A program made the position numbers and the translations under genes. This document shows, in pieces, positions 2,967 to 35,662 of a DNA stretch of 41,247 bases (its first letter is position 1; every line of letters starts with the position of its first letter). Below the pieces are notes generated by a model, which saw only the letters and a list, made by a program, of their open reading frames with translations, was not told the DNA's origin and ran no database searches. This DNA comes from Caldisericaceae bacterium (lineage in GTDB: Bacteria > Caldisericota > Caldisericia > Caldisericales > Caldisericaceae): assembly GCA_027023025.1 (NCBI GenBank), contig JALVXB010000020.1, positions 1 to 41,247 of the forward strand, written 5' to 3'.

Positions 2967-3989
2967 ATGCATACAAAAACGAAAAAAGCATACTTTAATC
3001 TATTTTTAACTTTTTTACTTGTTGTTGCATTTATAATTTATGGACTTTTGTTTCCGCACATTACAGCGGTTTATGTACCTCATGAATATCCGAATGCTGC
3101 AAAGGATGCTGCATTATTTATCGAACCGCAGCAAAAAGATTATCCAATTACAGATGCGATAGACTCTGCTCGTAAGAGCATAGATCTCGAAGTATACCTA
3201 TTGTCTGATAAGTATGTGATAAATTCTCTTATCGATGCAGAAAAAAGAGGAGTAGATGTAAGAGTTATTTTGGAGGAGCATCCATACAAAGGTTATGGGG
3301 CGAATAAGTCTGTAAAAGATAAACTTTCTCACTATGGCATTGAAACAAAGTGGGCTAACAGGGCATACCAGCTTACCCATTCTAAATTTTTAGTGATTGA
3401 TCAGAAAACCGGATATATTTTAACGATGAATCTCACGAAAAGTTCGTTTACAAAAAATAGAGAATTCGGTATCATTACGGATTCTAAATACGATGTAGAG
3501 GGTTTAGAGGAAGTTTTTAACGCTGATTGGAATAGAAAGCCGTATACGGAAGGCAGTGACAATCTCGTTGTGAGCCCTGAAAATTCAAGGAGAAAAATAG
3601 AAGCCTTATTAAATTCTGCTGAAGATGAGATTTTTATATATGCTGAAGAAATGGAAGATCAGGAAGTCGAAAATTTACTTATAAAGAAGGCACAAGAGGG
3701 TGTTAAAGTTGAAGTTATCTTGGCTTCTCCCTCAGTAATTGGAAGTAATGCAGATACTGGAAAGTATCTCAAACTAAACGGGGTAGAGGTAAGATACCTG
3801 GATTCTCCTTTTTTACATGCGAAAGTAGCTATAGTTGATAGAAAAGTAGCATATGTGGGGTCTGTGAATTTCTCGACCCCATCTTTTGATAAGAATAGGG
3901 AAATTGGAATTTTGGTATCAAATCAAGATGTATTAAATAAACTCGTAAATACTTTCTTAAACGACTTTAGTAATGCAGTGGAAAATTAG
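2967..3989 (+). CDS. Membrane-anchored phospholipase D-like protein
   Basis: A 340-residue protein with one N-terminal hydrophobic segment (about 9-30) that would anchor or export it, followed by two PLD catalytic repeats. The first HKD site is H138-K140-D145 (THSKFLVIDQ) and the second is H284-K286-D291 (LHAKVAIVDR), each followed by a small-residue N/S motif (TMNLT, SVNFS). Two complete HKD motifs make it catalytically competent. Enzymes of this shape hydrolyse or transfer phosphodiesters in phospholipids (cardiolipin synthase-like) or in nucleic acids. The membrane anchor favours a surface role, but the substrate is not determined. It is transcribed alone, and a new promoter starts 13 nt after its stop. 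Confidence 0.85.
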   Translation: MHTKTKKAYFNLFLTFLLVVAFIIYGLLFPHITAVYVPHEYPNAAKDAALFIEPQQKDYPITDAIDSARKSIDLEVYLLSDKYVINSLIDAEKRGVDVRVILEEHPYKGYGANKSVKDKLSHYGIETKWANRAYQLTHSKFLVIDQKTGYILTMNLTKSSFTKNREFGIITDSKYDVEGLEEVFNADWNRKPYTEGSDNLVVSPENSRRKIEALLNSAEDEIFIYAEEMEDQEVENLLIKKAQEGVKVEVILASPSVIGSNADTGKYLKLNGVEVRYLDSPFLHAKVAIVDRKVAYVGSVNFSTPSFDKNREIGILVSNQDVLNKLVNTFLNDFSNAVEN

Positions 3990-4001
3990 ATAAAAATGCT
4001 C

Positions 4002-4029
4002 TTGACACACGAATAAAATTATTTATAAT
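4002..4029 (+). promoter_or_regulatory. Strong consensus promoter with no CDS downstream
   Basis: Perfect TTGACA (4002-4007), 16-nt spacer, perfect TATAAT (4024-4029). The predicted start is near A4036. No reading frame follows on this strand before the next feature, so it most likely drives the small RNA candidate at 4036-4145. The block TTGACACACGAA is shared with the promoter at 35635. Confidence 0.75.
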
Positions 4030-4035
4030 CTTTAC

Positions 4036-4145
4036 AGGACTTGCGCAAAGTCCAATGAAAGTTTTAAAAACTTTCATTTCTTCCTCCTTTTTAAATGATC
4101 AAGGACAATGCCCCCCCATCCCCCAGGGGGCTCTCTTTATTTTGG
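4036..4145 (+). ncRNA. Candidate small regulatory RNA with anti-Shine-Dalgarno motif
   Basis: The predicted transcript of about 110 nt would hold, in order: a 5' hairpin GGACTT/AAGTCC (4037-4042 with 4048-4053, 5-nt loop); an AT-rich hairpin whose arms AATGAAAGTTTT and AAAACTTTCATT (4054-4065, 4067-4078) are perfectly complementary; an unpaired pyrimidine stretch with CCTCCTTT (4083-4090), which is identical to the 16S rRNA anti-Shine-Dalgarno core; and a GC hairpin GCCCCC/GGGGGC (4110-4115, 4126-4131) followed by TCTCTTTATTTT as terminator. A strong dedicated promoter precedes it. I recognise no known RNA family. The function, blocking ribosome binding sites by base pairing, is an inference. 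Confidence 0.5.
4110..4145 (+). terminator. GC-rich hairpin with imperfect T tract
   Basis: GCCCCC/GGGGGC with a C-rich loop, followed by TCTCTTTATTTT. It would end the candidate small RNA and any read-through from the PLD-like gene. Confidence 0.5.
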
Positions 4146-4380
4146 CGTGGTGTTTTTACTACCCGAGGAATGATGATAAAAATCTGGATTTTTATAAAGT
4201 GAAAATAAAGTAAAAGTCTCTTTCTTAATTTCTTATTGCGAATTTAACACTATGTGGTCACGATTTTATCTTTATATCTCGTAGAGAATGAAGAATAAAT
4301 AGTATTGTTGTATTGTTACTACAAAAAACAAAAATATATTAAGAACAGAATATATTCTTCGCTTTGTTTAATGTTTTATA
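4146..4380. other. AT-rich intergenic stretch without a gene
   Basis: No supported reading frame or RNA gene. The only structure seen is a perfect 9-bp inverted repeat ATAAAAATC/GATTTTTAT (4176-4195, 2-nt loop), which lacks a clear T tract beyond the stem on either strand. Confidence 0.5.
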
Positions 4381-4443: not shown

Positions 4444-5376
4444 TTAAACTAACAAAGATAAAATTGCCTTTTGAATGTGCAATCTATTCTCAGCCTGATC
4501 CCACACTACGGAATGTGCACCGTCGATTACGCTATCTGTTATTTCTTCGCCTCTATGTGCTGGCAAACAATGCATAACTATTACATTGCTATTTGCTTTT
4601 GATACGATCTCGTCGTTTATTTGATAAGGCTTCATTACTTTAACTCTCTTGTCGTGTTCTGCTTCTTCGCCCATAGATGCCCAAACATCTGTGTAGATAA
4701 TATCTGCGTCTTTTGCTGCTTCCAATGGGTTATGTGTTACAGTAAGCGAACCACCTGATTCTTTTGCAAACTTACTGGAAAGATCTATTACCTTTTTATC
4801 GGGTTCGTAACCTTTTGGAGTTGCTACCGCTACATGCATGCCAAACTTTGACCCACCGAACATTAAGGAATGACATACATTATTTCCATCACCTAAGTAT
4901 GCAAGTTTTAGACCTTCAAGTCTTAACTTTTTCTCTTTTATAGTGAGAAGGTCCCCCATAATCTGGCACGGATGTGTAAAATCAGATAGTGCATTTATCA
5001 CTGGTATCGTCCCGTTGTCTCTTAACTCTTCCAGTGTCTTGTGTGAATAAACTCGCGCTACTACTGCGTGTAAGTATCTTGATAAAACGCGTGCCGTATC
5101 TGCTACGGTTTCACCTCTTTTTAGCTGCATATTGGACGAATTAAGCACTAATGCTTGTGCACCTAATTGGAATATACCAACGGCAAAGGAGATTCTCGTT
5201 CGAGTGGATGGTTTTTCAAATATTACTCCAATGGACTTTCCTTTTAGAAGAGGCTCGTCTTTGCCAGATAAGTGTTCTAATTTTAGTTTTTCGCCCTGTG
5301 CGATAATTTCCTCTAATTCTTCTCTGGAAAAGTCGCTAATTGTAAGAAAAGACTTTCCCTTGAGGTTAATTGCCAT
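4444..5376 (-). CDS. argF: Ornithine carbamoyltransferase
   Basis: Transfers the carbamoyl group of carbamoyl phosphate to ornithine, giving citrulline (arginine synthesis, or the reverse in arginine breakdown). In 310 residues, the usual length, it has the carbamoyl phosphate site STRTR (57-61) and HPCQ (135-138). It also has the ornithine-side SMG loop (234-236) and HCLPAHRGEEI (269-279), which separate it from aspartate carbamoyltransferase. The ATG overlaps the stop of the COG2403 gene by one base (TAATG), so the two are coupled. No other arginine gene lies in the window, so the direction of flux cannot be told. A strong hairpin terminator follows. Confidence 0.95.
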   Translation of the reverse strand: MAINLKGKSFLTISDFSREELEEIIAQGEKLKLEHLSGKDEPLLKGKSIGVIFEKPSTRTRISFAVGIFQLGAQALVLNSSNMQLKRGETVADTARVLSRYLHAVVARVYSHKTLEELRDNGTIPVINALSDFTHPCQIMGDLLTIKEKKLRLEGLKLAYLGDGNNVCHSLMFGGSKFGMHVAVATPKGYEPDKKVIDLSSKFAKESGGSLTVTHNPLEAAKDADIIYTDVWASMGEEAEHDKRVKVMKPYQINDEIVSKANSNVIVMHCLPAHRGEEITDSVIDGAHSVVWDQAENRLHIQKAILSLLV

Positions 5377-7676: not shown

Positions 7677-9161
7677 TTAAAATTTTATATTGTATACAAG
7701 CAGGAATGCAAGTATTTGAAGTATGTATTTGCTTACTACCTCTGGCGGTGTGCGATCGATTTCTATTTCTATAGTATCATTAAGTTCTTTTACTGCCTCT
7801 ACTATTCTTCCTGCAATTACCTCAGAAACTTTTTTTGAGAATGCTCTTTCTTTTCTAATTCTATTGAATATAACTCTGTATAGAGCGTTCTCATCCTTAA
7901 AGTTTTTTAAGAATATTAACTCAAGCAGTTCAAGTGAAACCTGTGCTATATCTTTTTTCTCGTTTTCAGGGACTTTAGGTGGTAGGGAGGCAAGCGATTG
8001 TCCCAATACTTGCCTGATCGTTAGTGAAATTTTCTTTTGGTCAGTTACATTTTCTAATTGTTCTTTTACTGGCGTTACGAGAGAGTATGCTTTATACATT
8101 ATAAATGTGATGTACCCAAGATAAGAATCAATGTTTAATAGACTTTGCAATTGATTCATGGATATTATTCTGATTGCCTTTGTCTGTTTGCTCGTTGAAA
8201 GGATTTGCAGCATTTCTTTTGTTATGACATACATAATGTCGAATAGATCGTAGTTTTCGCCGAAACCAATATACAGATTAAGAAGCTTTGCGTCTTCGCG
8301 AGTAATTACCTGTCCGTGATTTTGGAAACCCCATACAAGCGTGTGTGCAGTTTGTGTAGCAAGAAGCATTTTTTCGTTTTCCGGTTTATCTCGGAACATA
8401 TACCTGTAAAGAAAATTATATGCATAAACCTCCCCAGTTGCAAGTGCTCTGTAGCACATATTAACAATCGTTGGGTTTATTTGAGATACTATGGGTGTAA
8501 TGTAATTTATTGCGGTATTGATTGCTATATCTACGGCATCCTCGCGTTTTATCGCTGTCCTTTGAATAATCTGGTCGGCAAGTTGCAGCGCTATGGGGAA
8601 AAATTCTGTCGAAACTTTAGAATAAAGTTGAAGAAATGGATAGTATCCTTCCAGCGCGGATATGTGCAGATTTTCTATTAATGGATGTTGCATCTGCATA
8701 TCAAGAGGTCCGAGCTCTGATTGAGCACCCATTATTATTTCGTCTGCACCAAGTGTCATAAGGGTCGCGGCACTTTTTGCGTATAAAGGAACTATTGCTT
8801 TTAATTTTTTACATCTGGAGCGAATAATGTTGACCATCTGATATGCGGGATGAGGATAGCCCCCTCCTGACAGAATAATCATGTCTATCCGCGTTTCCTC
8901 GGGAGGAGTAGGTATCTTATTTAACTGATCAATTAGGTCGAAAATATCTGCTCGGTCAATAGGTGCTGTTTCTCCATAAACAAAGAATAGAAGATAACGC
9001 GCCTCTTTTTCTTTTTTGGGGCTTTCAGGAGGTACGGGAGATTTTGTAGGAAGCGTTGAAGCTGTGCTTTCCTCTTCTCCTTTTATATTTTCTTCCTTTT
9101 TGCTATTCTCTTTATTTATTTCTTTATTTTTGGAATCCTCTCTTTGTTCTTTTTTCTCCAT
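7677..9161 (-). CDS. SDH-family Clp-fold serine protease with long C-terminal extension
   Basis: The core at about 55-230 resembles the SDH_sah/ClpP-fold serine proteases (PF01972). It shows an SGGG strand (98-101), the likely nucleophile Ser130 in YAKSAATLMTLGADEI and the following SELGPLDMQ (148-156). A 50-residue Lys/Glu/Pro-rich, low-complexity N-terminus precedes the core. About 260 residues with no family I can name follow it, making the protein (494 residues) longer than I expect for the family. A hydrophobic end (ILQILAFLLVYNI) may attach it to the membrane. GGGAGGAG precedes the ATG. It is the second gene of a three-gene run. Confidence 0.75.
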   Translation of the reverse strand: MEKKEQREDSKNKEINKENSKKEENIKGEEESTASTLPTKSPVPPESPKKEKEARYLLFFVYGETAPIDRADIFDLIDQLNKIPTPPEETRIDMIILSGGGYPHPAYQMVNIIRSRCKKLKAIVPLYAKSAATLMTLGADEIIMGAQSELGPLDMQMQHPLIENLHISALEGYYPFLQLYSKVSTEFFPIALQLADQIIQRTAIKREDAVDIAINTAINYITPIVSQINPTIVNMCYRALATGEVYAYNFLYRYMFRDKPENEKMLLATQTAHTLVWGFQNHGQVITREDAKLLNLYIGFGENYDLFDIMYVITKEMLQILSTSKQTKAIRIISMNQLQSLLNIDSYLGYITFIMYKAYSLVTPVKEQLENVTDQKKISLTIRQVLGQSLASLPPKVPENEKKDIAQVSLELLELIFLKNFKDENALYRVIFNRIRKERAFSKKVSEVIAGRIVEAVKELNDTIEIEIDRTPPEVVSKYILQILAFLLVYNIKF

Positions 9162-31108: not shown

Positions 31109-31140
31109 AGCCCCCACTTCAAAGTGGGGGGCTTTAAGTT
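31109..31140. terminator. Bidirectional terminator between convergent genes
   Basis: CCCCCACT and AGTGGGGG enclose TCAA (31111-31130), with outer AG/CT pairing and a T-rich tail on the plus strand. It lies between the PDO-like gene and the 3' end of the aminotransferase gene, so it can serve both. Confidence 0.75.
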
Positions 31141-32351
31141 TACTGGATTTTTGCTTTTATAATTTTTGCAAGTCTTTTTACACCTTCCTCTATTTCTTCT
31201 TTTGAAGGAAGAGTAAAGTTCAGTCTTATGTGATGTTTATCTTCGCCATTTGGATAGAATGCACTTCCGACGACATAAGCAACTTTTTCTTTAATAGCTT
31301 CTTTAAAGAGCTTGTCTGTATCTATGTATTCTGGAACCGTTACCCAAACAAACATTCCGCCTTCCGGTTTTGTCCAACTTGTTTCTTCAGGAAAGTGCTT
31401 TTCAAGTGCTTTAAGCATAGTGTCTTTCTTTTCTTTATAAGTTTTTCTTACGAGATCTAAATAGTTTCTCATGTACCCTTTTCTTATAAATTCTTCCGCA
31501 ATATACTGAGTAGAAGATGGAGAACATAGGTCTGACGCTTGCTTTGCAAGGACGAGTTTTTGAATTACTGATTTATCTGCAATTATCCAACCAAGTCTGA
31601 GTCCTGGAGCGAGAATTTTAGAGAAAGTTCTCAAAGCAATTACATTACCAATGTTGTCCATTTCTACGAGTGATGGGAGTTTTTTCCCCTCAAAGCGGAT
31701 TTCTCCGTAAGGGTCATCTTCTATGATAGGAATGTTATACTCGTGGCTAATCCTCAGTATTTCTTTTCTTCGTTCCAGGCTTAAAGTTACTCCAGCAGGA
31801 TTTTGAAAGTTAGGGATCGTGTAAATAAATTTGATATTAATTCCTTTGCTTTGAGTTTCCTTAACTTTTTGTTCAAGTATGTTTGTCTTAATACCTTCGT
31901 CATCCATAGGGATTGTTATAAATTTTGCCTGAAATGCGTTAAAGGCTTGCAGTCCTCCTACATAAGAAGGGGCTTCTACGATTATGGTATCGTTAGGATT
32001 GATAAAGATTTTAGAAACAAGATCCAGGCCCTGTTGGGAAGCCGTAGTTACTATTAAGTTTTCCAATTTTAAATTTTTAATGCCTTCACTCTTTCCTTCT
32101 TCAACGAGAGTTTCTCTTAACGATGGAATGCCCTCTGTTGCCCCATATTGAAGTGCTTTTCCACCGTGATTAAGGAATACATCTTTGGAAATTTCTGCGA
32201 TTGTTTCTTTAGGAAAAAGTTTCGGATCTGGCATACCGCCTGCCAATGAAATAATGTCTGGGCTGTCTACTAATTTGAGAAGTTCTCTGATTGCGGAAGC
32301 CTTCATTGTAAGGCTTCTTTCAGAAAATTTTTTTTGCCAATCTATTGACAT
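31140..32351 (-). CDS. PLP-dependent aminotransferase, class I (LysN/2-aminoadipate type)
   Basis: A 403-residue enzyme with PLP-site landmarks IISLAGGMPDPKLFP, GATEGIPSLRETL, TTASQQGLDLVSKIF, IYTIPNFQNPAGVTL, IIEDDPYGEIRF and RTFSKILAPGLRLGWI (the catalytic lysine is in FSK). The carboxylate-binding Arg is in KHHIRLNF. This subgroup includes 2-aminoadipate, aromatic and branched-chain transaminases with broad specificity, so the substrate is not fixed. AAGGAGG precedes the ATG. It is transcribed alone. Confidence 0.9.
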   Translation of the reverse strand: MSIDWQKKFSERSLTMKASAIRELLKLVDSPDIISLAGGMPDPKLFPKETIAEISKDVFLNHGGKALQYGATEGIPSLRETLVEEGKSEGIKNLKLENLIVTTASQQGLDLVSKIFINPNDTIIVEAPSYVGGLQAFNAFQAKFITIPMDDEGIKTNILEQKVKETQSKGINIKFIYTIPNFQNPAGVTLSLERRKEILRISHEYNIPIIEDDPYGEIRFEGKKLPSLVEMDNIGNVIALRTFSKILAPGLRLGWIIADKSVIQKLVLAKQASDLCSPSSTQYIAEEFIRKGYMRNYLDLVRKTYKEKKDTMLKALEKHFPEETSWTKPEGGMFVWVTVPEYIDTDKLFKEAIKEKVAYVVGSAFYPNGEDKHHIRLNFTLPSKEEIEEGVKRLAKIIKAKIQ

Positions 32352-32381
32352 TTTTACCTCCTTTCTAATTCATCCGATATT

Positions 32382-32410
32382 ATTATATAATTTTGTATTT
32401 AAAAAAGCAA
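32382..32410 (-). promoter_or_regulatory. Promoter of the aminotransferase gene
   Basis: On the minus strand TTGCTT (32410-32405), 17-nt spacer, perfect TATAAT (32387-32382). Confidence 0.5.
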
Positions 32411-35634: not shown

Positions 35635-35662
35635 TTGACACACGAAATTATTCTACTATAAT
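35635..35662 (+). promoter_or_regulatory. Promoter of the amino acid ABC operon
   Basis: Perfect TTGACA (35635-35640), 16-nt spacer, perfect TATAAT (35657-35662). It shares TTGACACACGAA and an AAAAAT a few bases upstream with the promoter at 4002. Confidence 0.78.

Follow-up and report, generated by a model that had tools for sequence, protein, structure and literature searches.

The small RNA LhrC of Listeria (RF00616) carries CU-rich motifs that are anti-Shine-Dalgarno (anti-SD). The csRNAs of streptococci, which are CiaR-dependent and 87-151 nt long in pneumococcus, have two stem-loops, the second of which is the terminator, and between them an unpaired stretch that is both anti-SD and anti-AUG (CAU) (PMC3091779, PMC4507080). 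They repress comC by pairing with its SD and start codon (PMC3091779, PMC4507080). In alpha-r14/NfeR1 of rhizobia (RF02344) an unpaired anti-SD motif is ultraconserved, the stems diverge, and the seed blocks the SD of the target (PMC10746234). RoxS/RsaE (RF01820) and FsrA of Bacillales are free-standing RNAs that bind their target mRNAs through C-rich regions (PMC8216469). The Caldisericaceae are a little-studied family of thermophiles, and the literature searched yielded no regulatory small RNA from Caldisericota.

The window, the whole stretch of DNA that was analysed, comprises the 41,247 nt of JALVXB010000020.1 (GCA_027023025.1) from a Caldisericaceae bacterium; all coordinates are window positions. 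It contains a free-standing small-RNA gene at 4002-4143 on the plus strand that is conserved across at least five genera. This gene and its homologues are referred to as family A. Its product is probably a trans-acting anti-SD regulatory RNA of about 108 nt, with its own sigma-70-type promoter and intrinsic terminator, that blocks 30S binding. The features of the locus are as follows.

2967-3989, plus strand: upstream neighbour, a PLD-family protein gene (PF13091, 1.3e-51).
4002-4029, plus strand: sigma-70-type promoter TTGACA-N16-TATAAT, exact, with the 16-nt spacing and every letter kept in 9/9 homologues.
4035-4143, plus strand: predicted small RNA transcript, about 108 nt, start at 4035-4037 (covariance model match 4034-4143, 97.7 bits).
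4037-4053, plus strand: hairpin 1, GGACTT-GCGCA-AAGTCC, with compensatory changes in 5/6 pairs and 100% of alignment cells paired.
4056-4076, plus strand: hairpin 2, TGAAAGT-loop-ACTTTCA, near-invariant, with 96.8% of cells paired; the anti-TIR block starts with its 3' arm.
4070-4094, plus strand: anti-TIR block ACTTTCATTTCTTCCTCCTTTTTAA, of which distant genera share 25/26 to 26/26 bases.
4095-4109, plus strand: variable single-stranded linker, with 5/21 and 5/17 bases shared with the distant homologues L009 and L011.
4110-4143, plus strand: intrinsic terminator GCCCCC-CCATCCCCCA-GGGGGC followed by TCTCTTTATTTT, with a C-rich loop and 2/6 pairs compensatory; terminator-like on the plus strand.
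4444-5376, minus strand: convergent neighbour, an ornithine/aspartate carbamoyltransferase gene (PF00185/PF02729).

The promoter reported at 4002-4029 in the first-pass annotation proved exact on re-checking: TTGACA occupies 4002-4007 and TATAAT 4024-4029, with a spacer of 16 nt. The first 20 kb of the window contain 78 promoter-like sites, of which this is the sole 12/12 match. Four perfect TTGACA-N16-TATAAT sequences, this one included, occur in a 319-kb sample of the host genome, which is made up of the window and 15 further stretches (278 kb) and covers only part of the genome. The other three precede a lipoprotein-like gene, a groES-like gene and another gene, the names being read from sequence. 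Such a perfect promoter lies in the window at 35635-35662 on the plus strand, directly 5' of an SD and a lipoprotein-like gene, and has TTGACACACGAA in common with the family A promoter.

A DNA search of 61 genomes (the host and relatives) found family A homologues in several genera. With the covariance model, the kind of search that the first-pass annotation had proposed, 9/18 Caldisericaceae genomes match, representing 5/9 genera, with one copy per genome. The model found no family A in the remaining 9/18 genomes of the family, so the clade can do without the RNA; 36 further genomes of the phylum, searched with stricter filters, gave no match either. Absence elsewhere is soft, because most genomes with homologues are fragmented drafts and several are less than 95% complete. 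In the distant homologues the match did not reach beyond hairpin 2 and the CCTCC block. Around this seed, 9/9 loci have TTGACA-N16-TATAAT at the right distance and a GC terminator; the promoter lay outside the seed, and its retention is therefore independent confirmation of a plus-strand gene. The promoter, hairpin 1, the block and the terminator are thus kept across five genera, and the conservation in relatives on which the earlier claim had been staked is present.

The predicted transcript (4036-4142) folds with -31.5 kcal/mol (z = -3.84), and 0/200 shuffled sequences folded equally well. As had been described, two hairpins are followed by a GC hairpin (4110-4131) with a T-rich tail (4132-4143). 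Hairpin 1 shares only 6/17 bases with L009 and 4/17 with L011, and its pairing is nonetheless 100%. Over the whole family A alignment, which was registered by hand, N-padded and fitted to the stems by eye so that the pair counts lean that way, 98.8% of cells pair and 7 pairs show double changes (24 cells). When the partners were slid by 1-3 columns as a control, only 0-1 compensatory pairs were found. A MAFFT alignment misregistered hairpin 1 and the terminator, and RNAalifold on that alignment gave little covariation. Hairpin 2 has no compensatory pairs in the family A alignment because it is nearly invariant, and its conservation may come from constraint on the sequence instead of the structure. 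The window's match to itself on the minus strand (4054-4078) is the palindrome of this hairpin. In the terminator loop (4116-4125), TCCCCC is kept in 9/9 family A members. This C-rich loop may serve as a second G-binding site.

The most conserved element is a 26-nt block, ACTTTCATTT(T)CTTCCTCCTTTTTAA, invariant but for one T (25/26 when the window is compared with L009 or L011), next to a linker that is about 25-30% identical. The anti-AUG CAT (4075-4077) and the anti-SD CTTCCTCC (4080-4087) both lie inside it. Its antisense, TTAAAAAGGAGGAAGAAATGAAAGT, reads as an A-rich leader, GGAGG (the SD), a spacer of 5-6 nt, AUG and AAA. The host 16S rRNA ends in GGATCACCTCCTTTCTAGGG, and CCTCCTTT at 4083-4090 is therefore the anti-SD core of the host itself, as had been claimed from the sequence of the window. 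The accompanying claim that this pyrimidine stretch is unpaired holds in part: it is unpaired with a mean probability of 0.64-0.90, and weak pairing with an AAGGA further downstream lowers access to the anti-SD. The CAT, at the edge of hairpin 2, is mostly paired in the predicted fold.

Taken alone, CCTCCTTT is uninformative: ordinary SDs yield it in antisense, and the two strands of the 319 kb contain about 35 copies. The flanks carry further information. Sampled start regions of the host genome are A-rich, G-rich at -12 to -6, and have ATG followed by A-rich codons, and so resemble the antisense of the block. When CCTCC was fixed and the flanks were shuffled, predicted pairing with 280 start regions, by simple duplex energies that leave out accessibility at growth temperature and for about a fifth of the genome, was weaker in 147/150 (mean) and 146/150 (best 14) cases. 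The first duplex test took in three genes chosen for matching; in a rerun without them the effect was smaller and persisted. Because shuffled flanks pair worse, the flanks also seem to be tuned to start regions.

From these sequence features we infer transcription of the RNA, repression and a list of targets. The strong sigma-70-type promoter would give a transcript ended by the intrinsic terminator, hairpin 1 would shield the RNA 5' end, and the C/U-rich CUUCCUCCUUUUU would be the seed that pairs with GGAGG-type SDs. On mRNA start regions like AAAAAGGAGGAAGAAAUGAAAG, the duplex would extend through the spacer and AUG, opening the A/U-rich hairpin 2, and would block 30S binding, probably without Hfq. 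In this way the RNA probably switches off the translation of some genes. The general traits of trans-encoded anti-SD RNAs, namely an own promoter and terminator, no conserved frame, a partly single-stranded seed and diverged stems, are all seen in the family A sequences. Hfq scores above the Pfam cut-off in 0/18 Caldisericaceae genomes, the one sub-threshold match being in G008 (L199; 20.2 bits vs 27). These missing matches would fit pairing that needs no chaperone, like that of Gram-positive anti-SD RNAs.

A whole-genome search for the antisense pattern (up to 3 mismatches) returned 0 mismatches at family A's own locus only. Beyond it, the best matches have 2-3 mismatches and lie at different genes in each genus, and no target recurs across genera in this search. 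A few host start sites lie at 3 mismatches of 22; they belong to genes for a 458-aa secreted protein at G000:C40:17065, a DUF4870-like membrane protein on C26 and a PepT-like peptidase on C25 (names read from sequence), which also score among the best host candidates. The matches behave as ordinary, generic start sites, genus by genus, and G014 (genus g6, 80% complete, family A not found) likewise has antisense-matching start sites. The non-recurrence could mean that the targets are many and weak, or that the effect is general. For the protein encoded at 7677-9161 on the minus strand, the start region of the G010 relative (L145), AAAAAGGAGGAAGCAATGAAA, is one mismatch from the family A antisense, and its own start region in the window is GGGAGGAGAAAATG.

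A second RNA, family B, is unrelated to family A and was found through a search for a perfect promoter plus CCTCC, which in the host genome returned only family A, family B and one tRNA-like gene. Family B occurs in 11 genomes from 8 genera of Caldisericaceae and not in genus g6, where family A occurs. The loci concerned are these.

L111, L113, L117 and L124-L134: family B members; the host copy is L131 (G000:C17:9771-9837).
31140-32351, minus strand: aminotransferase gene (PF00155), predicted target of family B and not of family A, with the SD leader 32352-32385, GGATGAATTAGAAAGGAGGTA.

Family B has a strong sigma-70-type promoter of its own, a 5' hairpin that varies by genus in its stem sequence and yet folds in most members, an unpaired anti-SD core, CCTACCTCCTTTCTTATTCATGCC, and a terminator. 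It resembles family A in the promoter type, the 5' hairpin, the unpaired anti-SD and the C-rich terminator loop. It differs in that its core pairs upstream of the SD and not through the AUG, in its distribution, and in having a clear predicted target. The aminotransferase leader shows 21-22 nt of perfect complementarity to family B, SD included, in two genomes (L135, L136). Independently, the host gene ranks first when 283 sampled start regions are scored against the family B core (-29.2 kcal/mol). Carriers of family B give predicted energies of -18 to -36 kcal/mol, and five genomes of one genus without it give -13 to -18 kcal/mol; these five are one lineage and therefore count as one event. 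In the G001 draft, where family B was not found, the value with the consensus core is -31.1 kcal/mol. By sequence complementarity the leader is a convincing predicted target, and the pair is the clearest sign, as a prediction, of the use of anti-SD RNAs in Caldisericaceae.

Both families might together form an Hfq-independent layer of translation control, in which A would be near-generic and damp strongly translated mRNAs with A-rich leaders as a group and B would be dedicated to an amino-acid gene. We regard this joint reading as speculative and rather doubtful. Less likely again is that the family A RNA mimics the 16S tail and acts on the translation machinery as a whole, as a decoy that captures initiating mRNAs or an initiation factor, and not on chosen mRNAs. 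CCTCCTTT is common to the RNA and the host 16S tail, the block complements a generic start region while no single target recurs across genera, and many simultaneous targets would impose invariance on the block. However, conservation spans the anti-spacer and the anti-AUG beyond the 16S-like octamer, neither of which a plain decoy needs, and the sibling family B RNA has a specific predicted target.

The locus is very unlikely to be a mere terminator or 3' UTR of the upstream gene, with no separate function. Where flanking sequence was covered, a same-strand gene does lie close upstream, and the L005 promoter overlaps the stop region. The upstream gene varies, however, being of the PLD family in L003-L006 and an oppF-type ABC ATPase in the g6 loci, while the promoter, hairpin 1 and block are constant, and a terminator needs neither an invariant 26-nt block nor a perfect promoter. 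The family A gene is free-standing in two distinct neighbourhoods, with convergent genes on either side; in the window, the downstream carbamoyltransferase is 78-86% identical to the closest named records ('Caldisericaceae bacterium', 'Caldiserica bacterium'). The RNA terminator may in addition double as the end of the upstream PLD-family mRNA.

Function on the minus strand, where a small conserved protein would use TTAAAAAGGAGGAAGAAATGAAAG as its true ribosome-binding site and start codon, is more improbable still. The invariant block does read there as a perfect SD-spacer-ATG-AAA in 9/9 homologues. The frame is not conserved, however: its length is 36 aa for the window, 4 aa (MKVF) for a 97% identical sister species, and 25, 17-26, 29 or 142 aa elsewhere, with similarity ending after MKVF. 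The exact promoter, the T-tailed terminator and the covarying hairpin 1 all indicate the plus strand. The non-conserved frame lengths refute a minus-strand coding gene. On the plus strand, the first-pass annotation had seen no reading frame; a 52-aa ORF (4055-4213) does overlap the RNA, yet its frame is shifted in the sister species, and it was rejected as a gene. We give as little credence to the block being a protein binding site and the RNA a protein sponge: the strong sequence constraint and the nearly invariant hairpin 2 would agree with it, but it would then be a coincidence that the block is the exact antisense of a start region whose SD and AUG are correctly spaced, and the flank shuffles, of which 3/150 (mean) and 4/150 (best 14) did no worse, speak for a fit to start regions.

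Family A, read as an anti-SD regulatory RNA, is a new RNA family of a known small-RNA type, because the models of the described families score far below threshold on it and csRNA traits are missing. The bit scores are 14.8 vs 58.8 for alpha-r14 (RF02344), 12.5 vs 79 for RsaE/RoxS (RF01820), 16.7 vs 110 for LhrC (RF00616) and 25.9 vs 90 for PrrF (RF00444); searches of Rfam at the gathering threshold and at E <= 10 gave tRNAs and sub-threshold noise only, and no family fits. It is a precise, small and testable family, to which family B adds a concrete, predicted RNA-target pair. Whereas alpha-r14 has three hairpins, each with CCUCCUCCC, family A has one CUUCCUCCUUUUU stretch (CCUCC in the linker) plus the anti-AUG; RoxS/RsaE and FsrA are C-rich, and family A has CCUCC with the anti-AUG. 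By analogy family A would work like the csRNAs, which are closest to it in design, yet it is no member of them. In family A the anti-SD and anti-AUG letters likewise lie between a 5' stem and a terminator, but the CAT is mostly paired in the predicted fold, where the csRNA stretch is unpaired. Family A lacks a CiaR-box, with no TTTAAG repeat in 3960-4030 and a plain TTGACA-N16-TATAAT, and is present in one copy per genome (9 genomes), in contrast to the several copies of csRNAs. Its extra hairpin 2 holds the anti-AUG part, it belongs to another phylum, and there is no sequence match. That a csRNA-like design occurs in a distant phylum of thermophiles with no detectable Hfq suggests that it was invented convergently.
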